DNA of 64,000 bases, from assembly GCA_913060865.1 (NCBI GenBank), contig CAJXTU010000012.1, positions 1 through 64,000 of the forward strand. Reading direction: 5' to 3'. Shown one piece after another: positions 6,549 through 25,060 of the stretch; within the stretch, counting starts at the first letter, position 1, and each line of letters starts with the position of its first letter. The notes below the pieces were generated by a model. The model did not search any database. It worked only from the letters and a program-made list of their open reading frames with translations, and had not been told where the DNA came from. A program made the position numbers and the translations under genes. Source of the DNA: an uncultured Cycloclasticus sp. Lineage in GTDB: Bacteria > Pseudomonadota > Gammaproteobacteria > Methylococcales > Cycloclasticaceae.

Positions 6549-7238
6549 ATGAATAAATGGATTTTGTTATTAAGTTTAACTGTCATAACACACTCAACTT
6601 TTGCACATAATGTGCAGCTTGAAGGGATCGTCAACCTGCAAGCATCCGCTAGCATTGAAGTTGAAACGGATACCATGCAGGCAACCATAGCCGTAGAAGC
6701 TGAAAATTACGACCCGGCCGTACTGGCTGAGCAAATAAATAAAAAGATGTCTTGGGCGCTGAAAACAGCCGCACCTTTTAAAACCGTAAAAGTAAAAGGT
6801 GGCCAGTACACATCACACCAACTTTATAGTAAACGTATTTTCAAAGCATGGCGTGGCACTCAAACCATTACGCTAGAAAGTAAGGATAGTAAGCAACTAG
6901 GAAAACTCATCGGCTTGTTACAAAAAAAACTACTTATTAAATCTCTTCGTTACCAAGTCTCAAAAGAAAAATTAGCCGTTACTAAGCAGTTACTCACAAA
7001 ACAAGCGATTGCACAATTTAAGGCACAAGCAAAAATTATTACAAAAGAGTTTGATAAAAATAAATATGTAATCCACCAAATTAACATCAATTCAAACAAT
7101 CAGTATCGGCCCGTGCATTACGCAAAATCACGAATGCTTTCTAGTGCCATGTCTGATGAGGCCGCCCCTGCCAACCTGCAACAAAACTCATCCATTGTGC
7201 AGGTTAATATCAACGGATCCATTCGGATAATTAACTAA
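6549..7238 (+). CDS. SIMPL domain (DUF541) periplasmic protein
   Basis: A 229-residue protein with an N-terminal signal peptide (hydrophobic residues 3-19, probable cleavage after THSTFA). A SIMPL/DUF541-type domain follows, with beta strands such as LQASASIEVETDTMQATIAVEAE and a helix DPAVLAEQINKKM. Family members are exported and sometimes linked to oxidative-stress tolerance, but no specific role can be assigned. An AAGGG about 8 nt upstream supports the ATG. The gene precedes the nitrate module and appears independent of it. Confidence 0.8.
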   Translation: MNKWILLLSLTVITHSTFAHNVQLEGIVNLQASASIEVETDTMQATIAVEAENYDPAVLAEQINKKMSWALKTAAPFKTVKVKGGQYTSHQLYSKRIFKAWRGTQTITLESKDSKQLGKLIGLLQKKLLIKSLRYQVSKEKLAVTKQLLTKQAIAQFKAQAKIITKEFDKNKYVIHQININSNNQYRPVHYAKSRMLSSAMSDEAAPANLQQNSSIVQVNINGSIRIIN

Positions 7239-7276: not shown

Positions 7277-7322
7277 GCACCATTATAGTGCTACTTAGTT
7301 ATAGATAGCACTTTAATGATGC
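7277..7322 (+). promoter_or_regulatory. Tandem NtrC-type enhancer sites
   Basis: GCAC-N7-GTGC at 7277-7291 fits the NtrC dyad consensus. A second, imperfect dyad GCAC-N7-ATGC lies at 7308-7322. Their centres are about 31 bp apart, near three helical turns. They lie roughly 127 and 96 bp upstream of the start predicted for the sigma-54 promoter at 7384-7400, the usual enhancer distance for NtrC. Confidence 0.62.
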
Positions 7323-7383
7323 GACGCAATATTTACACTCATTACTGATCCTCCTTAAACCGTTGTATATGGCCAACATAAAG

Positions 7384-7400
7384 TTGGCATAGTCATTGCT
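7384..7400 (+). promoter_or_regulatory. sigma-54 (RpoN) promoter of the porin/nasT operon
   Basis: The sequence TTGGCATA-GTCA-TTGCT matches the sigma-54 consensus YTGGCACG-N4-TTGCW at all key bases, including the -24 GG and -12 GC. Predicted transcription starts near 7411, so the leader RNA begins just before the hairpins described below. With the upstream NtrC-type sites this implies activation under nitrogen limitation. Confidence 0.72.
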
Positions 7401-7419
7401 ATACAGTGTTCATGTGCTA

Positions 7420-7490
7420 TTTGCTTTATTAAAGGAATAACACCACTGTAACGGCGCAGTGATAACAACAATCATAATATGTAAAGCAAA
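7420..7490 (+). promoter_or_regulatory. ANTAR-type RNA leader upstream of the porin gene
   Basis: The second hairpin (P2-like) is CACTGT (7444-7449), hexaloop AACGGC (7450-7455), GCAGTG (7456-7461). The loop has A at position 1 and G at position 4, the ANTAR-target signature. A weaker first hairpin, TTATT-AAAGG-AATAA (7426-7440), ends 3 nt before it but has a 5-nt loop. A 9-bp long-range pairing (7420-7428 with 7482-7490) would enclose both and competes with the first hairpin. Known NasR/NasT-family leaders work by antitermination; that function is inferred here. Confidence 0.62.
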
Positions 7491-7492
7491 GA

Positions 7493-7524
7493 AGCTAACT
7501 CGGTGTACTCGTGTTGGCTTTTTT
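7493..7524 (+). terminator. Intrinsic terminator (attenuator) before the porin gene
   Basis: AGCTAAC (7493-7499) pairs with GTTGGCT (7513-7519). After a T-T mismatch CG pairs with CG, with a 7-nt loop at 7503-7509. The stem is followed by a T run to 7524. It lies inside the leader, 42 bp before the porin start codon, so it can act as an attenuator released by the NasT-like protein. Confidence 0.72.
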
Positions 7525-7566: not shown

Positions 7567-8853
7567 ATGAAAATTAAGAGAAAAAGCCAATCGAACCCTG
7601 TGATAATTGGAGCCATCGCTAGCACAATGCTAATGACTGCTGCACCTTTAGCTCAGGCCGAAGAATCTTTATTAAGTGCCTTAACCAGTGGTAAAGCCAG
7701 TTACAGCGCTAGATTACGTTATGAAAACGTCGATCAAGATAACTTACCTGAAGAAGCTAACGCCTATACCGCTAGATTAACAGCGGCTTACAAAACGGGA
7801 TCATATTACGGGCTTGCTCTGTTTGGTGAAGTTGAAAGCGTACACAGTCTATTTAGTAATAACTACGCCCACAAATCTCAAGCAAAAGGTGCTACCTACC
7901 CTGTTATTGCAGACCCTAACGAAACCGAGTTAAACCAAGGTTACCTGTTTTATACAGGCCTTGAAAACACCTCAATGAAATTAGGTCGCCAGGCACTAAC
8001 ATACCGTGGTGCACCTTTTCATCGACATATTGGTACAGTCGCGTGGCGTCAAAATTGGCAAACACTTGATGCCTTCTCTATTTCTAATCAATCGCTAACA
8101 GATACAACTATCAATTATGCTTATGTTTGGAATGTGAACCGAATCTTTGGTGAAGATGCACCAGAACCTTTTGATAATTTTGACAGCGATTCACATTTAT
8201 TCAATGTTCAATATACCGGCTTTAAACCCGCAAAAATTGAAGCCTATGCCTACTTATATGATTTTGAAAACGGCGATGCTTTTTCAACTAATACATACGG
8301 CTTAAGAGTTAGCGGTGGTACTCCTGTCAGCGATAACACTAAAGTCATTTATACGGCCGAATATGCAACTCAGTCTGATGCTGCTGATAATCCTAATTCT
8401 ATTGATGCAGATTATATGTTGGCCGAATTAGGTACAAAAATGTCATTTAGTGGCCCTCTTAAAATGCTATTGCTTAAAGCAAGCTATGAGTTACAAGAAG
8501 GCAATGGTGGTGCAGACCGTTTTGTTACTATTTTGGGAACCAACCATGCTTATCAAGGTTGGGCAGATAAATTCTTAGTAACACCGGGTGATGGTGTTGA
8601 AGATATCTACTTAACAGCCGTTGCCCAAGCATACGGTATGAAATTTGTAGCGTCTTACCATGACTTTAGTTCAGACAATAACAGTTATGACTACGGTACT
8701 GAGTTTGATATTTTAGCCACAAAAAAAGTGAGTAAAAATTATACCGTAGGTCTTAAGTATGCTGATTACAACGCCGATAATAACGCCTTAAATATGGGCG
8801 CAACCGCAATTGATACAACTAAATTATGGGCATTTGTTAGCGCGAAATTCTAG
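7567..8853 (+). CDS. Outer-membrane porin-like beta-barrel (alginate-export type)
   Basis: A 428-residue protein with a signal peptide (residues 1-31, ending APLAQA before EESLL). It is followed by alternating-hydrophobicity strands typical of a beta barrel and a C-terminal aromatic residue (SAKF). The pattern around MKLGRQALTYRGAPFHRHIGTVAWRQNWQTLD in short pieces (LGRQ, RQNWQ) suggests the alginate-export/porin superfamily. Its place between NtrC/sigma-54 control sites and a nitrate-type ABC transporter suggests outer-membrane passage of nitrate or another nitrogen source. That substrate is inference. Confidence 0.8.
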   Translation: MKIKRKSQSNPVIIGAIASTMLMTAAPLAQAEESLLSALTSGKASYSARLRYENVDQDNLPEEANAYTARLTAAYKTGSYYGLALFGEVESVHSLFSNNYAHKSQAKGATYPVIADPNETELNQGYLFYTGLENTSMKLGRQALTYRGAPFHRHIGTVAWRQNWQTLDAFSISNQSLTDTTINYAYVWNVNRIFGEDAPEPFDNFDSDSHLFNVQYTGFKPAKIEAYAYLYDFENGDAFSTNTYGLRVSGGTPVSDNTKVIYTAEYATQSDAADNPNSIDADYMLAELGTKMSFSGPLKMLLLKASYELQEGNGGADRFVTILGTNHAYQGWADKFLVTPGDGVEDIYLTAVAQAYGMKFVASYHDFSSDNNSYDYGTEFDILATKKVSKNYTVGLKYADYNADNNALNMGATAIDTTKLWAFVSAKF

Positions 8854-8903: not shown

Positions 8904-9482
8904 ATGAAACCTAAAGTCCTATTATTTAACTCAACGGCTGATGAACTAGTAGATGTTCAGGAGCATTTATCTGACTCCATTTATGACGTCACAGCCGTTA
9001 CATCAGATTTAAGCGATATTAGCCGAGCTGCTCTATCAGGCACTGTGGACATCATCATGGCCGTTACGGATAAAAGGTTCGATCAGTTATTTAGTTGCAT
9101 ACAACAAATTAATTTACAGAACCCTATCCCCGTGATTGTCTTTACCTATGAAGACAGTAGAGACGTTATTCAATCTGCTATTAAGGTGGGCGTAAGCGCC
9201 TATATTGTTGATGGTCTTCAAGCAAAACGTATTGTTTCTATTATTGATACCGCTTGTTTTCGCTTTAATGAACAAAAACTTGTTAAAGATGAACTGGAAA
9301 AGACTAAAAACACATTAACTGAGCGCAAACTGATCGATAAAGCAAAAGGCATTGTTATGCAGCGCTCTAATATCAGTGAAAATGATGCATATAAAGCCAT
9401 GCGTAAAATGGCGATGGATAAAAACATCAAAATGGTGGAGCTTGCAAAAAGTGTCATTTCGGCGAGCGAAATTTTGGCATAA
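8904..9482 (+). CDS. nasT: NasT-like ANTAR-domain antiterminator
   Basis: A 192-residue regulator with an N-terminal receiver-like domain (about 1-120), a linker helix and a C-terminal ANTAR RNA-binding domain (about 130-190: LTERKLIDKAKGIVMQR, AYKAMRKMAMDK). The segment AYIVDGLQAKRI is typical of NasT proteins. The receiver lacks the usual acidic pair (F8 N9), and A53/V54 occupy the expected phospho-aspartate position, so it is probably phosphorylation-independent. NasT is normally held inactive by the sensor NasS when nitrate is absent, and no separate nasS is in view. It lies 50 bp after the porin gene, so it is likely under its own leader control. Confidence 0.88.
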   Translation: MKPKVLLFNSTADELVDVQEHLSDSIYDVTAVTSDLSDISRAALSGTVDIIMAVTDKRFDQLFSCIQQINLQNPIPVIVFTYEDSRDVIQSAIKVGVSAYIVDGLQAKRIVSIIDTACFRFNEQKLVKDELEKTKNTLTERKLIDKAKGIVMQRSNISENDAYKAMRKMAMDKNIKMVELAKSVISASEILA

Positions 9483-9528
9483 GTATTGCTTTATATTTTA
9501 TAAATGTAGTTGTAAGTAATAGCATTAC

Positions 9529-9547
9529 CCCCCCCCCGATATTCGGG
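9529..9547 (+). repeat. C9 homopolymer and short hairpin
   Basis: Nine consecutive C residues (9529-9537) run into a small hairpin, CCCGA (9535-9539) and TCGGG (9543-9547), just upstream of the second ANTAR leader. Homopolymers of this length are rare in the surrounding AT-rich sequence and are prone to slippage or sequencing error. Confidence 0.7.
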
Positions 9548-9559
9548 TTTAGAAATATC

Positions 9560-9590
9560 GACCATTTAAGGTCACAGGGCAAAGGCGTCC
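9560..9590 (+). promoter_or_regulatory. ANTAR-type RNA leader upstream of nrtA
   Basis: Two hairpins are separated by 3 nt. P1 is GACC-ATTTAA-GGTC (9560-9573) with a 6-nt loop that has A1 but T at position 4. P2 is GGGC-AAAGGC-GTCC (9577-9590) with the canonical A1/G4 hexaloop and one G-U pair. The 3' arm of P2 (9587-9590) is also the base of the downstream terminator, so the two structures are mutually exclusive. This is the antitermination layout known for NasR, EutV and NasT targets. Confidence 0.68.
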
Positions 9591-9636
9591 GTTAGCAAGT
9601 TTTCTTTAATAGAAGACGAGCTGCGGGCGTTTTTTT
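9586..9636 (+). terminator. Intrinsic terminator (attenuator) before nrtA
   Basis: A long imperfect stem pairs CGTCCGT (9586-9592) with GCGGGCG (9623-9629) and AGC (9594-9596) with GCT (9620-9622). After an internal loop, GTTTTC (9599-9604) pairs with GAAGAC (9612-9617) around TTTAATA. A run of seven T residues follows (9630-9636). It lies 28 bp before the nrtA start and overlaps the ANTAR P2 hairpin. Confidence 0.82.
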
Positions 9637-9664
9637 ATGGATTTTTATAATAAACAGGAAAAAA

Positions 9665-11056
9665 ATGAAACAAATTAAACAGACATTTATTAAGAAGGAT
9701 ATGGGAGGCTTGTTTAAAAGCTGCCTCGCAGGTTTAGCGCTTACAATCGCAGGTGGCTTAACGACTGCTCACGCTGTTGGAGAGCTGGAAAAAGATGAGC
9801 TTAAATTTGGCTTTATCAAACTAACCGATATGGCACCCTTAGCGGTGGCTTATGAAAAAGGTTTCTTTGAAGACGAAGGTCTTTACGTGACGATAGAACC
9901 TCAAGCGAACTGGAAAGTGTTGCTTGATCGTGTGATTGATGGCGAATTAGACGGCGCACATATGTTAGCTGGCCAACCTTTAGGCGCAACTATTGGATTT
10001 GGTACTAAAGCCGATATCATTACTGCCTTCAGTATGGATTTAAATGGTAACGCGATTACTGTTTCCAATGATATTTGGGCAGAAATGAAACCCAATATTC
10101 CTAAAGATGCAGCCGGCAAGCCTGTGCACCCGATTAGTGCAAGCGCACTGAAACCAGTTGTTGATCGGTATAAGTCCGAGGGAAAGCCTTTTAATATGGG
10201 TATGGTTTTTCCAGTATCAACACATAACTATGAATTACGTTATTGGTTAGCAGCGGGCGGTATTCACCCAGGGTATTATTCAAAATCGGATATTACCGGC
10301 CAAATTGATGCGGATGCCTTATTATCTGTAACCCCTCCTCCGCAAATGCCATCGACACTTGAAGCCGGTACTATTTATGGTTATTGCGTCGGTGAGCCTT
10401 GGAATCAGCAAGCCGTATTTAAAGGTATTGGTGTTCCCGTGGTCACCGATTATGAAATTTGGAAAAATAACCCAGAAAAAGTGTTTGGCGTTAGCGCAGC
10501 ATGGGCAGAAAAAAATCCAAATACACACAAAGCCGTTATTAAAGCCTTGATACGTGCAGCGCAATGGTTGGATGCTAATAACGATGCAAACCGTCCAGAA
10601 GCGGTGAAAATTCTTGCTCAATCTGAATATGTTGGTGCCGATTACGATGTTATTGCAAACAGCATGACCGGTACCTTTGAGTATGAAAAAGGTGACAAAC
10701 GTGCCTTGCCAGATTTCAACGTGTTCTATCGCTACTATGCCACCTACCCTTACTATTCAGATGCTATTTGGTACCTAACGCAAATGCGCCGTTGGGGACA
10801 AATTACTGAAGAAAAGTCTGATGATTGGTTCCACGAGATTGCGAAAAAAGTATACCGTCCAGACATCTACCTTGCAGCTGCTAAAGAACTGTTAGAGGAA
10901 GGCAAGATTGCTAAAGAAGATATGCCTTGGGATACAGATGGTTACCGTGCTCCACAAACTCACTTTATCGATAACATTAGTTACGATGGCCGTACACCTA
11001 ATGCTTACTTAGGTAAGTTCAAAATTGGTCTAAAAGGACAAGATACCGTTAAGTAA
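9665..11056 (+). CDS. nrtA: Nitrate-type ABC transporter substrate-binding protein (NrtA/CmpA family)
   Basis: A 463-residue periplasmic binding protein. Residues 1-37 form a Sec-type signal ending LTTAHA before VGELEKDEL. The mature part shows the NrtA/CmpA pattern: [24 protein letters not shown] in overlapping pieces, [23 protein letters not shown], and [12 protein letters not shown] near the hinge. The family binds nitrate, nitrite or bicarbonate; the flanking NasT-type regulation favours nitrate. An AGGA lies about 5 nt before the ATG. The gene is controlled by the leader and terminator directly upstream, and a hairpin separates it from the permease gene. Confidence 0.9.
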
Positions 11057-11125: not shown

Positions 11126-12277
11126 ATGTCTGTCAATACAGCATTAGAAGATAAAAATATGGAAAACACAGAAATGACCAAACCAGTAAGCTCACCCGCT
11201 GAACCCAATGAGGCTGTTGTGAATACGCCTGAAAAGAAGACCGCTAATGAAGGCGTTAAAGTCTCTGTCAAAATTAATAATTTTCTTGAACTCATCGGTT
11301 TTACTTGGTTTATACCCATCGTCAAATTATTAGCCGGTGAAAACCCGGTAGAACAATTAAAGGAAATAGTAAAAGTGGTCGGTGTACCCGTATTAGCGAT
11401 GCTGATTTTCATCGGTTTTTGGGACTGGGGTGCAGCCAAAATCCAAACAAGCCTGGGTGCCATTCCGGGTCCTGCTGCTGTATGGCAAGAAACAAAGAGC
11501 CTTGCCGCTGACCATTACAAAGAGAAAGAAAAAGAAATTGCTTTCTATAAACGTCAAGATGTTCGCAACGCTAAAAAGCTTGAGAAGAATCCAGACGCTG
11601 TTATTAAGGTTCGTGATTACACCGGTAAAGCCACTTACCCTCAACAAATAATGACCAGCTTATGGACTGTTTTCGCAGGGTTTTTATTAGCCTCTGTTGT
11701 TGCCATTCCATTGGGCGTTGTTTGTGGTTTGAGCCCTGCATTTAATGCGGCCATAAACCCCATTATTCAAATTTTCAAACCCGTTTCGCCACTCGCGTGG
11801 TTACCGATCGTCACGCTCATCGTGAGCGCACTGTACGTCGTTGAAGGTGAAGCAGCGTTTAGCAAGTCATTCCTTGTTTCAGCGATAACGGTCACGTTGT
11901 GCTCACTATGGCCAACACTTATTAATACAGCTGTTGGCGTTTCCACCATTGATAAAGATTTAATGAATGTATCAAAAGTACTGCAATTAGGTTGGTGGAA
12001 AACAGTGACTAAAATTGTTTTACCCAGCTCACTTCCATTAATTTTTACTGGTCTAAGACTCTCTTTAGGTGTTGGCTGGATGGTCTTAATTGCGGCAGAA
12101 ATGCTAGCTCAAAACCCAGGACTCGGTAAATTTGTTTGGGATGAATTTCAAAATGGTAGTTCTCAATCTCTTGGTAAAATTATGGTTGCTGTGTTCACCA
12201 TTGGTATTATCGGCTTTATGCTCGATCGCATCATGTTAACACTGCAAAAATACTTTTCTTACGGCGACGCAATGTAG
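11126..12277 (+). CDS. nrtB: Nitrate-type ABC transporter permease
   Basis: A 383-residue inner-membrane permease. The first ~45 residues are polar ([17 protein letters not shown]) and longer than in most NrtB proteins. Several membrane segments follow, including [16 protein letters not shown] and [20 protein letters not shown], with a polar insert between them rich in Lys and Glu. The cytoplasmic coupling motif reads [19 protein letters not shown], the usual EAA-loop region. AGAGG precedes the ATG by 7 nt. It lies 11 bp upstream of the double ATPase gene. Confidence 0.88.
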
Positions 12278-12288
12278 GGGAACTGAAT

Positions 12289-13968
12289 ATGTCATTTTTA
12301 GCACTTAACAATATAAGTAAATCCTACGGCAGCGGTCACAATAAAAGTGATGTGCTTAGCAATATTAATCTTGATATTAAAGAAGGTGAATTTGTTGCCA
12401 TTGTTGGTTTCTCCGGGACGGGTAAAACCACGCTCATTTCAACAATTGCCGGCTTAATCCAGCCCGATAGTGGTGAAGTCACCATGCAGGGTAAAAAAGT
12501 CACGGGGCCAAGTTCCGAACGTGGTGTTGTTTTTCAAAGTTACTCGTTAATGCCTTGGCTAACGGTTTTTGGAAATGTTGCTTTGGCTGTTGATTCGGTC
12601 TTTAGCGACCTATCCGCAATTGAGCGAAAAGAACGCATCGAGAAATACATCGATATGGTTGGTTTGTCTCACGCCACACATCGCCACCCTTCTGAGCTGT
12701 CGGGCGGCATGAGGCAGCGTGTTAACGTTGCTCGAGCATTGGCCGCCAGTCCAGATGTTTTGTTATTAGACGAGCCCCTCAGCGCGTTAGACGCACTAAC
12801 ACGTGCCAACCTTCAAGATGAAATCATTAGAATTTGGGAGCAAGAAAAGAAAACCGTTGTTCTTATTACCAATGATGTGGATGAAGGTTTGATTATGGCT
12901 GACCGGATTATCCCTTTAAATCCGGGGCCTAACGCCACTTTCGGTCCAGAATTCATTGTTGATTTACCACGCCCACGTGATAGAACAGCGATGAATCATG
13001 ATGAAAACTTTAAAAAATTACGCAGTGATATTACTCAATATTTAATGAGTGTCGGTATTGGAGATAATAATGATTCAGATAGTAATATTTATCATTTGCC
13101 GAATGTGCAACCGAATACCGCTAGTGATTTCGGCTTAAGCGATGATGAAAAACCAGACGCACTAAAGCCTTACGCTAACAATATTGGAGATAAAAAATAC
13201 TTAGAGTATTTCAATCTAACCAAAATTTATCCCACACCTAAAGGGCCATTAACCGTCGTCGAAAAATTTGAACTTAATATAGAAAAAGGCGAGTTCATTT
13301 CTATTATTGGGCATTCAGGCTGTGGTAAGTCCACCGTCTTATCAATGACTGCAGGGTTAACAGACATCAGCGATGGTGGTATTGTTTTGGATAAAAAAGA
13401 AGTCAGTGGCGCTGGCCCCGATCGAGCGGTTGTTTTCCAAGCCCCTAGCCTATTCCCTTGGTTAAGCGCTAAAGAAAATGTTGCCTTAGGTGTTGAGCGA
13501 GTCTATCCGCACTGTACCAAAGAAGAACGAAACAGCATTGTTGAGTATTATTTAAGTAAAGTAGGCTTAAGTGATGCGTTGAATAAGAAAGCCGCTGAAT
13601 TATCCAATGGCATGAAGCAGCGTGTAGGTATTTCACGAGCCTTCGCCCTCTCTCCAAAGCTTCTCTTGCTAGATGAGCCATTTGGAATGTTGGATTCCTT
13701 AACAAGGTGGGAACTTCAAGAGGTATTAATGGAAGTTTGGACACGTACCAAGGTGACCGCCATTATGGTCACCCATGATGTTGACGAAGCGATTTTGTTG
13801 GCTGACCGTGTGGTTATGATGACCAATGGACCCAATGCTAAAGTGGGTAAAGTTATGAAGGTAGATTTACCTAGACCACGTACACGTAAAGCGTTGGTGT
13901 CTCACCCTGATTATTATAAATATAGAGAAGAGCTACTAAGTTTCTTAGCGGAGTGCGATAACCATTAA
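12289..13968 (+). CDS. Tandem ABC ATPase of the nitrate-type transporter (NrtC/NrtD-like fusion)
   Basis: The 559-residue protein contains two complete ABC domains. Domain 1 has Walker [10 protein letters not shown] (about 40-48), signature LSGGMRQRV and Walker [13 protein letters not shown], but ITNDVDEG where the H-loop histidine should be. Domain 2 has Walker [10 protein letters not shown] (about 340), a divergent signature LSNGMKQRV, Walker [13 protein letters not shown] and a normal H-loop VTHDVDEA. In the head-to-tail ATP sandwich, one site would combine the two degenerate elements and the other the two consensus elements, predicting asymmetric hydrolysis. GGGGA precedes the ATG. The usual split nrtC and nrtD genes are fused here; no C-terminal NrtA-like domain is present. 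Confidence 0.9.
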
Positions 13969-21919: not shown

Positions 21920-23780
21920 TCATATTCGTGTGACTTTCGCCTCAAACAGATAACTATTCAATATTTCTTGAAGTTTGCGTGCATCATCAGCTGTAGCATA
22001 TGCCAGTCTGACGTTCACGACCATACCACGGGTACCACCAATTCAACGTCCACTTTAGCGCCGTCAATGTGCTGTTCACTTAGTACTGCGTTGACCGAAC
22101 ATGCCACGGCGTCTTTACGTAGTTCAGGTTTATAAATTTTCCCAACCGCAGTCATTGGTATCGCCGGAATAACATAAATGTGTTTAGGCCAGGCTGGTCG
22201 TTCCCCGATGCTGGCTCCAGCATGTGCGTGAAGTTCTTCATCGCTGGCTGTTAAGTTAGGTAATAACTGCACGTAGCACACGGGGATTTCACCAGCATAT
22301 ACATCAGGCATCCCGACCGCTGCGGCAAGGGCTACTGCAGGGTGATTCTGCATGGCGTTCTCAATCATCAGTGGGTCGATGTTGTGAGCGCTTCTAATAA
22401 TCACATCCTTTGATCGCCCAGCTATGTATAGCCTGCCCTCTTCGTCTGTGTATGCAAGATCACCCGTCACCAATGCTCCATTCACGAATGTCCCTGCATT
22501 CTGATCCATGTTGCGATAGCCGGGAGATACGGTTGGCCCATCGATAACAAGTTCACCCACTTCTCCTATGTCGCATGTTGAACCTAAATTTCCGTCTGTT
22601 CTGCGACGTCGGATTATAACTTGCGTATAGGGGAAGCGAATCCCAATTGACCCCATGCCCCCTTCGCCATAAAACGGATTGCAAGAAATGAGTCCTGAGG
22701 CTTCAGTCATACCGTAGATTTCGCTGAGTGGCTTACCTGTTACGGCAACGAATTTTTCTCGAATGGCAACAGGAAGTGACGATGCGCCTGTCAAACCACA
22801 TCTGATAGAACTAATGTCTGCACCATCAATAGGTACGTCTATAAATGCACCGATAGATGTAGGTACACCGCCCACAAGTGTGGCTTTATAGTGCTCACAA
22901 ATCTGCCAAAATCGGGTTATCATAATTCGGTTTCGCAACCCAGCAGGCGACAACAGTAGTAGTTCCGAGCCAGAAAGAAACGCGCTTATTCCCAGAAAAA
23001 TTGTACCCGCGACATGAAACATCGGCAGGGTTGCTGTCATGATATCGTTTGGAGTGAGGCCAGCCAAGCTAGAGCAACCAAAACCAGGGGCAAGCTGGCC
23101 GTTATGTGTGTGAGCAGCTAATTTTGGCACGCCTGTTGTGCCACCGGTATGAAAATAGGTTGCAAGATCATCGCCTCGGCCATGTTGATCAACATGGCTA
23201 AACGGTCATCTGGTTGATTAGCAAGGGCGTCGAATAAATCGATGACATCATCAACGGGTTCACTTCCCGGTGGCGCTACCCGTATCAATATAAGATGTGG
23301 GAGCTGTCGTTTCAGTTCGAGCGATTTTCCCCATATATCGAGTTGAGGATGCGGCCCCAACGTGACGAGTATTTTTGCTTCTGATGCTTCTAGCAGGCTT
23401 TTGATATGATCTGGCTGCAGTAAAAAATTGATGGGTACCGCATAGCCAGCGGTTTCAGCACCCCAAAGAACGGCGTGTGTTTCTATCAGGGTTGGCAGCA
23501 TGTAAGCAACACCAGGGCGGGTGCCGCCCAAACTAGAGAATAAATTTGCTGATTGGCGTACAAGCCCCAATAACTGTGCATAATTTACGCTTCGGGGTTG
23601 CTCATCATCAGCTCCCCTCAGTAGCATTCTCAGTGCGGTGCGATCACCATAAGTTTTCGCAGCCTCAATAAAAACATCGTAGATACTGTCGCCAGGTAGG
23701 CGCTATTGGAGCGGCATTTCTTGTTCAAACCGCTCAACATCTGCCAATGTCTTTAATGGAATCTTAGGCAAATTAGTCAT
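21920..23780 (-). pseudogene. Fatty-acyl-CoA synthase (AMP-binding) pseudogene
   Basis: The decayed gene runs from ATG 23780 (AGGAG at 23790-23786) to TGA 21922-21920 and would have encoded about 620 residues. It has three lesions. An amber TAG at codon 26 (23705-23703) precedes RLPGDSIYDVF. A -1 frameshift lies near 23200-23202 (TTT on the coding strand where TTTT restores the frame), just before the ATP-binding motif YFHTGGTTGVPK. A second -1 shift lies near the C-terminus at about 22029-22031 (CCC where CCCC restores it), after which the true ending GMVVNVRLAYATADDARK follows. The motif IYGMTEASG and the signature YIAGRSKDVIIR are intact. The region looks more GC-rich than its surroundings, consistent with past transfer. 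Confidence 0.88.
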
Positions 23781-24115: not shown

Positions 24116-25060
24116 CTAACGGTTTAGCAGCTCTGCATTCGTTGGGTATGTTTCAAGTAACTCAGCAAGTTTTCTAGCAGCTTCTACAGGCTTAAGGTGG
24201 GTCAGCGCCCTTCGTAAAACTCTTACCTTGTCGATATCTTTTGAATTGAGAAGAAGTTCCTCACGACGCGTGCTACTTTTAGCAATATCCAACGCAGGGA
24301 AAATTCGCTGATCCGCAATCTCCCTCGATAAAACAATTTCCATATTACCCGTGCCCTTAAACTCCTCAAATATCACTTGATCCATCCGGCTTCCTGTATC
24401 AATAAGTATGGTCGCGATAATGCTCAGTGAGCCACCATTTTCAATATTTCTAGCGGCGCCAAACAGTTTCCTTGGCATTTCCATAGTTCTCGCATCCACC
24501 CCGCCCGACATCGTACGCCCGCTACTCTTTATCCCTGCATTATGTACTCGTGCAAGCCGTGTTAGAGAATCAATGACAATCATGACATTGTGACCTTCAC
24601 CAGCTTCCTTGCAGGCAGTGTTAAGTAAATCATTGGCTACACGAAGGTGTTTATCATAGCTGTCATCCGAGGATGAGGCATGTACTTGCGCCGGCACGTT
24701 GCGCTTAAAATCAGTCACTTCTTCCGGCCGCTCATCGATCAGTAGCGCATAAAGCTTTATGTCGGGGTAAGCCTTCCCCACCGCTTGGCAAATATGTTTT
24801 AAAACGGTTGTTTTCCCGCAGCCCGGTGGTGCAACAATCAACCCTCGTTGACCCATACCTATTGGCGTAATCAAATCCATCGCACGCGTGGTGAGTTGAT
24901 CAGACCCTAATTCTAGACGAATGCACTCAGAAGGATTAATCGCTACGCCATTTAAAAAACGCTTTTGCGGGTCTTCATCAGGTACATCCTTGATGACCCT
25001 CTTGGATTCTTTTGGGACTATATTTCTTTTTACCTTCAAAGATAATGTTTTTTTCGCCAT
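24116..25060 (-). CDS. Rho-like ATPase lacking the N-terminal RNA-binding domain
   Basis: A 314-residue protein homologous to the ATPase part of transcription termination factor Rho, which is usually about 420 residues. Walker A is APPGCGKTT (77-85), followed by LLIDERPEEVTDFKR, a Q-loop-like HASSSDDSYDKHLRVA, Walker B NVMIVIDSLTRLARVHN, R-loop SSGRTMSGGVDARTM and FGAARNIENGGSLSII. Only about 45 residues precede the conserved RLELG start of the ATPase core, and these are Lys/Arg-rich (KKTLSLKVKRN). The N-terminal helix bundle and cold-shock OB fold that bind rut RNA in Rho are absent. The full-length rho is presumably elsewhere. Upstream lies an RRM gene on the same strand. Exact role unknown. 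Confidence 0.85.
   Translation of the reverse strand: MAKKTLSLKVKRNIVPKESKRVIKDVPDEDPQKRFLNGVAINPSECIRLELGSDQLTTRAMDLITPIGMGQRGLIVAPPGCGKTTVLKHICQAVGKAYPDIKLYALLIDERPEEVTDFKRNVPAQVHASSSDDSYDKHLRVANDLLNTACKEAGEGHNVMIVIDSLTRLARVHNAGIKSSGRTMSGGVDARTMEMPRKLFGAARNIENGGSLSIIATILIDTGSRMDQVIFEEFKGTGNMEIVLSREIADQRIFPALDIAKSSTRREELLLNSKDIDKVRVLRRALTHLKPVEAARKLAELLETYPTNAELLNR

Follow-up and report, generated by a model that had tools for sequence, protein, structure and literature searches.

What controls a nitrate-uptake operon that carries the gene for its own ANTAR regulator, and to what input could that regulator answer? The question is raised by 250 bp within a 64,000-nucleotide stretch of DNA (the window), which belongs to a 2.43-Mb genome in 39 contigs that is 99.94% complete. 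A SIMPL gene (6549-7238) precedes this control region, and five genes on the forward strand follow it. The first encodes an Opr-like outer-membrane porin (7567-8853, 428 aa), for which the match to NF033923 (E = 2.4e-11) lies below the cut-off of that profile and a Pfam search returned no match. The second, nasT (8904-9482, 192 aa), was identified by its domain matches and encodes a receiver-like domain and an ANTAR domain, with valine in place of the receiver aspartate. Next come nrtA (9665-11056; PF13379, E = 7.5e-99), encoding the nitrate-binding protein of an ABC transporter, nrtB (11126-12277; profile match), encoding the permease, and nrtCD (12289-13968), which encodes two fused ATPase domains matching TIGR01184 in two stretches. 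The closest named relatives of nasT are in Cycloclasticus records L035 and L037 and in L036, a MAG labelled Methylococcaceae. NCBI taxonomy places Cycloclasticus under Thiotrichales; the order covered by our genome search is, we assume, Methylococcales in GTDB. Our best explanation, which we grade as a whole and consider probable, is that a Cycloclasticus-like bacterium uses these 250 bp to control a nitrate-uptake operon, with an Ntr/sigma-54 start, NasT-gated leaders, and a NasS-free input.

Elsewhere in the window, on the reverse strand, an AMP-binding (acyl-CoA ligase-like) gene (22015-23627) is split over two overlapping frames and looks broken. Also on the reverse strand, a Rho-like protein of 314 aa, recognized by eye (24116-25060), has the ATPase domain and gave no Pfam match for the N-terminal RNA-binding domain; it is possibly a short Rho paralogue. 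In an Rfam search of the window, a tRNA was the sole match, and at the control region only CrcZ appeared, far below threshold.

A sequence-only reading of this DNA had placed two NtrC-like dyads, three helical turns apart, ahead of a near-consensus sigma-54 promoter, and we found both. Dyad 1 (GCACCATTATAGTGC, 7277-7291) and dyad 2 (GCACTTTAATGATGC, 7308-7322) were identified by pattern match, with 31 bp between their centres; such a pair is found at a single place in the 64-kb window and never in 100 shuffles. The promoter on the forward strand (TGGCATAGTCATTGCT, 7385-7400) has the form GG-N10-GC and matches TGGCAYRNNNNTTGCW exactly. Two dyads upstream of a sigma-54 site, each with at most one mismatch, likewise occur once in the window (0 of 40 shuffles), an arrangement of the NtrC/sigma-54 type. 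Both exact sigma-54 matches in the window lie within the porin-nasT-nrtA locus. Since sites with at most one mismatch are no more frequent than expected (3 observed vs 3.4 by chance), the weight of the match lies in its position and conservation. The -12 GC at 7398-7399 predicts a transcription start at about 7411. A sigma-70 promoter was also considered and rejected, the scan having found 4 sites against a shuffled mean of 8.4.

We compared eight leaders: that of the window, those of L042 to L047, which with the window make up seven Cycloclasticus loci, and that of L038, a distant MAG. In all eight, a sigma-54 site matching at 15 or more of 16 positions starts 45-63 nt before the first leader hairpin. 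Both half-sites of dyad 1 are kept in five of six aligned porin leaders, with L043 keeping the left half only. Dyad 2 is kept in the window, L042, and L044, has one mismatch in L043, and is degenerate in L045 and L046. The genome also carries an NtrC gene (694.8 bits against a cut-off of 558.6), and NtrC would presumably bind at the dyads.

Downstream of the predicted start lies a leader (leader 1) with an A1/G4 hexaloop hairpin and an intrinsic terminator, both of which the sequence-only reading had recognized. The hairpin, P1 (CACUGU-AACGGC-GCAGUG, 7444-7461), places A1 at 7450 and G4 at 7453 and is backed by folding, conservation, and covariation; its A1/G4 hexaloop is present in 8/8 leaders. 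The terminator (7492-7524) was identified by folding and has a U-tract in the window. The accessible text of Ramesh et al. 2012 describes the ANTAR target as two A1/G4 hexaloop hairpins, the second overlapping a terminator, and gives AGCAANGRRGCUY as a common eut sequence (PMC3369931). A second hairpin, P2 (AGC-AAAGAA-GCU, 7485-7496), fits that eut motif at 12 of 13 positions, is further backed by covariation, and overlaps the 5' arm of the terminator. The named elements of the earlier anatomy thus stand at about the places given for them; missing from it were P2, a second control module before nrtA, and the absence of NasS, described below.

The segment 7411-7535 folds with a z score of -2.59, equalled by 3 of 200 shuffles. 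A mechanical terminator scan listed neither the terminator of leader 1 nor that of the second module, so both terminators rest on folding, and a two-hairpin scan with strict settings, in its first version, gave no entry for the window. The linker between P1 and P2 measures 23 nt in the window, 20-27 nt in Cycloclasticus, and 16 nt in L038. In the available parts of the eut reports, natural linkers are 5-12 nt and lengthening them cut or abolished antitermination (PMC3369931, PMC8934654); the linkers here exceed that range, which was measured in eut and need not apply to nas leaders. The segment 7420-7429 can, by folding, pair with 7481-7490, which would cover the 5' arm of P2 and some of the P2 loop. 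We dropped it as a conserved anti-P2 element, as by eye only L042 keeps part of it.

The second module lies between nasT and nrtA, all on the forward strand. An exact sigma-54-like match (TGGCATAAGTATTGCT, 9475-9490) overlaps the nasT stop codon and predicts a start at about 9501. This site is exact in four of the seven Cycloclasticus loci, and none was found in L045 to L047. Within this leader (leader 2), folding and comparison identified a degenerate P1 that has no G4 (GACC-AUUUAA-GGUC, 9560-9573), and a motif scan and comparison identified a nas-type P2 (GGGC-AAAGGC-GUCC, 9577-9590). P2 overlaps an intrinsic terminator found by folding (9581-9636), and the region 9520-9650 folds with a z score of -3.96, which none of 200 shuffles equalled. 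P2 has both A1 and G4 in 7/7 Cycloclasticus loci; in the adjoining hairpin the stem is preserved, but A1 and G4 co-occur in 0/7. Farther upstream, another hairpin has both residues in L045 and L046 only. In L038, the region between nasT and nrtA holds a sigma-54 site (15/16) and, by eye, two A1/G4 hairpins. A run of ten C at 9528-9537 in the nrtA leader of the window corresponds to about 4-5 C in relatives L042 to L045 and may reflect either a variable tract or an assembly error.

Covariation across homologous leaders, which had been suggested as a check, was found for P1 and P2 in the Cycloclasticus relatives and L038. The set comprised seven distinct rows from eight loci (the window equals L042 here), with P1 and P2 anchored by hand. 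Standard pairs filled 90% of the P1 and P2 pair cells, as against at most 43% when partners were slid, and five of the ten pairs changed on both sides; these two-sided changes occupy six cells, four from L038 and two from L047. The covariation score was reached by 1 of 500 shuffles and the number of further pair types by 47 of 500. Every one of the eight leaders has P1, P2, and a terminator stem after the sigma-54 site, and nasT lies behind its own leader in 7/7 Cycloclasticus loci, including L047, where there is no porin and the leader adjoins nasT directly. In P2, G4 is kept in 8/8 loci and A1 in 7/8, with loop positions 3, 5, and 6 varying. Taken together, these comparisons support a predicted Ntr/sigma-54 start and a putative ANTAR-type attenuator before porin-nasT. 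Given the anatomy of leader 1, the porin-nasT order, and the second module, we read the locus as a candidate antitermination leader of the ANTAR type, with the gene for NasT downstream of it.

NasT was the only ANTAR match found in the genome, and its N-terminal receiver-like domain joined to an ANTAR domain is the architecture of the NasS-NasT type. Its predicted fold has a mean pLDDT of 89.6 (seven sequences), and the closest structure is EutV bound to RNA. Eight of 11 EutV RNA-contact residues are identical in NasT, as matched by eye on the alignment. RNA binding by NasT, and read-through as its consequence, would be consistent with these features.

Several observations count against a simple version of the model: the 23-nt linker, the P2 stem of only 3 bp, the U-tract (seen in five of eight leaders and missing or broken in L043, L044, and L047), the failure of the mechanical scan to list either terminator, the G that begins the P2 loop in L047, the origin of all two-sided pair changes in L038 and L047 together with the 47 of 500 shuffles that reach the number of further pair types, the lack of a joint A1 and G4 in the hairpin beside P2 of leader 2, and an in-frame TAG close to the beginning of the ANTAR domain in L046 nasT (L037, Cycloclasticus sp. 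46_120_T64). Some of these would also fit leaders that are relics, with NasT regulation decaying in Cycloclasticus and sigma-54/NtrC acting alone through leaky terminators. Three of the seven Cycloclasticus leaders have the U-tract defect, leader 2 P1 has lost A1/G4, L046 nasT has its stop, and 11 of the 18 Cycloclasticus genomes have no nasT match (present in the other seven). Yet the P1 and P2 cores are held in all seven Cycloclasticus loci while the flanks largely diverge, and most ANTAR contact residues are kept, so that we regard decay as very unlikely.

We then turned from the leaders to the input of NasT. L038 has the order porin-nasT-nasS-nrtABC, and its NasS has no signal peptide by eye. 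With this NasS as the query, only nrtA was found in the seven Cycloclasticus genomes that have nasT; among the 11 without nasT, one (G027) gave a 19-bit match and ten gave none. Across 301 genomes of the order, at least 31 have a NasS-type best match among the matches listed, defined as at least 392 bits and reaching residue 400 or beyond. G110 (partial match) and G030 (289 bits, to residue 415, difficult to assign) were counted neither with nor without NasS.

We read the receiver aspartate in the best NasT match per genome for 78 of the 180 matching genomes, plus L038 to L041. The 78 genomes comprise the 31 with NasS among the matches listed, G110, and 46 without, the latter being Cycloclasticus, the other genomes with the highest scores, and a spread chosen by hand (six of the 46 are less than 90% complete). 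By the matches listed, NasT has the aspartate in 32/32 cases with NasS (L038 included) and in none of the 46 without, where the position is Asn in 37, Val in seven (all Cycloclasticus), and Ala in two. Cases with unclassified NasS status were set aside (G110, L039, and L040 with Asp; L041 with Asn). A quick-method tree with its long branches flagged gave two changes per trait; its starred branches provide a single independent pair. The association between NasS and the aspartate is therefore consistent but not statistically independent, with about two evolutionary changes behind it.

The sequence-only reading had made read-through depend on release of the NasT-like protein. This part was not supported, since none of the seven nasT genomes yielded a NasS and the receiver aspartate is valine. 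For the same two reasons, the release mechanism known from Paracoccus is left without a visible partner, and the input of NasT would differ from the established one, in which nitrate drives its release from NasS. To the extent that these genomes can tell, a release step of the NasS type is excluded. Conventional NasS-type nitrate sensing would require that NasS is too diverged for our query or that NrtA or another binding protein substitutes for it. The L038 locus, with a NasS gene beside the porin-nasT order, is in keeping with that idea, as are two further PF13379 genes in the genome that exceed the Pfam cut-off (59 and 25 bits). Against it, the query that gives at least 392 bits in NasS genomes finds only nrtA in the seven nasT genomes, the beginning of NrtA looks by eye like a signal peptide, and NasS and the receiver aspartate are missing together. 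We consider it unlikely and retain a NasS-free input as the preferred reading.

The surroundings of nasT were scanned in 82 loci with a strict motif, which requires a T-run and so misses the L047 leader and which is blind to leaders separated from nasT by a porin; a hairpin was found directly upstream in one locus, downstream in 20, and in neither position in 61. The upstream case (L060, 5597-7676, reverse strand), from a genome with NasS, has a nas-type hairpin and T-run immediately upstream of nasT, with an alginate-export-type porin next in order; judged by its motif, it is a second case of nasT behind a nas-type element. In family f8, presumably Methylomonadaceae, three genomes without NasS have a nas-type P2 and then a T-run before nirB-like genes (L048, 4790, reverse strand; L052, 9179; L053, 9324), and L052 has another such P2 and T-run before nrtA (6355, reverse strand).

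Within the genome that contains the window, nirB-nasA lies at a separate location (C15). A sigma-54-like site (15/16) starts 54-59 bp before the nirB start codon in 7/7 nasT genomes, with two of the start codons set by eye, and no A1/G4 hairpin was evident within the short nirB transcript of any of the seven. nirB looks to be controlled by sigma-54 alone, and NasT may therefore act only on its own locus. A scan of the genome for P2-like patterns gave 13 matches against 6 in the reversed control, namely the known site (C12) and 12 further matches. Further ANTAR leaders were sought at nirB-nasA and narK of the same genome, and none was seen; hexaloop hairpins there lie upstream of the promoter only. 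Near the narK start, an exact sigma-54-type site was observed (L144, 3548-3563, reverse strand), again with no ANTAR hairpin seen.

Such a local circuit could also work as a switch set by NasT dosage. NasT would then be constitutively active, the leaders would not report nitrate, and nitrogen limitation would evoke a delayed, possibly bistable response by positive feedback, the weaker leader 2 opening after leader 1. The joint absence of NasS and the receiver aspartate, the position of nasT behind its own leader in 7/7 Cycloclasticus loci, the degenerate P1 of leader 2, and the lack of a visible ANTAR element in the nirB transcript of 7/7 genomes would all fit. However, the receiver-like domain is whole and predicted to fold well, suggesting a retained role, and in the available description AmiC acts as the controlling partner of AmiR, itself a pseudo-receiver protein (PMC3369936). 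We view a pure dosage switch as possible but somewhat unlikely.

In the model that we prefer, NtrC and sigma-54 RNA polymerase would start transcription near 7411 under nitrogen limitation, and without active NasT the transcript would end at the terminator (7492-7524). NasT, made from the second gene behind the leader, would bind the A1/G4 hexaloops of P1 and P2. As P2 takes up part of the 5' arm of the terminator, formation of P2 would allow polymerase to continue through porin and nasT. nrtABC would be under a further gate of similar kind (the sigma-54-like site at 9475-9490 in the clade of the window, P2 at 9577-9590, and the terminator to 9636). NasT would work without NasS through a receiver-like domain that lacks the aspartate; we would expect some further partner or ligand to act on it, and read-through to depend as well on how much NasT is present, by positive feedback. 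Any response to nitrate is likewise hypothetical.

At slightly less than an even chance, and so tentatively, we extend this to an orphan class: Cycloclasticus and many f8 relatives of the same order would have a NasT without NasS and without the aspartate that answers to an as yet unnamed signal or to dosage. The Cycloclasticus NasT would use two serial ANTAR terminators, one with a eut-like and one with a nas-like P2, to gate its own production and the import of nitrate, leaving nitrite/nitrate reduction outside the circuit. The well-studied ANTAR antiterminators, in the sources available, take their input from a fused NIT domain in NasR, from the binding-protein partners NasS and AmiC, or from the histidine kinase EutW. 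For a NasT group that shows none of them, its switch becomes a testable question. The Cycloclasticus circuit covers porin and ABC transporter, with nirB apparently under sigma-54 alone, and would separate the control of import from that of reduction.

Much of this logic has precedents. The proposed novelty of the autoregulatory loop is overstated, as AmiR is encoded within the amiECBRS operon and controls the amiE leader of that same operon, according to the accessible account (PMC3369936). For Klebsiella nasF and NasR, to which the locus had been likened, combined Ntr and ANTAR control is described (PMC5424462). Serial ANTAR terminators are described in the available text on eut (PMC3369931). 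All three features (combined Ntr and ANTAR control, terminators of the ANTAR type in series, and a regulator encoded in the operon that it controls) are thus already known, and the interest that is left lies in the orphan NasT class and the self-gated, two-terminator uptake operon. In the portions of the open-licence literature covered by our search, including PMC3795266, PMC6759348, and PMC6956133 besides the reports cited here, we found no discussion of a NasT that works alone, nor of an ANTAR leader ahead of porin-nasT. In the accessible part of a report on Acidithiobacillus thiooxidans, nasT is named with nrtA, narK, and nirB, and nasS is not named (PMC2607301), so the gene pattern of nasT without nasS may already have been seen, uncommented.

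As far as the available parts of these reports describe them, four systems invite comparison. The locus shares a NasT-type ANTAR protein with the NasS-NasT systems of Paracoccus denitrificans and Bradyrhizobium. In Paracoccus, NtrC controls nasT through an NtrC-type site before that gene, and NasT controls the leader before nasA (PMC5424462). Unlike in those systems, no NasS was found here, nasT lies behind an ANTAR leader, and the receiver aspartate is lost. Like the eut locus of Enterococcus faecalis with EutV, it has several ANTAR terminators and a P2 that fits AGCAANGRRGCUY (PMC3369931); in contrast, the eut input is phosphorylation by EutW, the eut linker is 5-12 nt as against 23 nt here (PMC3369931), and a sigma-54 promoter is absent from the eut description that we compared. 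AmiR of Pseudomonas aeruginosa is similarly a pseudo-receiver ANTAR regulator inside the operon that it controls, but AmiC is its sensor partner and it responds to amides, not nitrogen supply (PMC3369936). Klebsiella nasF likewise combines Ntr control with an ANTAR attenuator before nitrate-assimilation genes (PMC5424462, PMC3369936). NasR carries its own nitrate-sensing NIT domain, whereas the regulator here has a receiver-like domain without the aspartate and is encoded behind its own leader.
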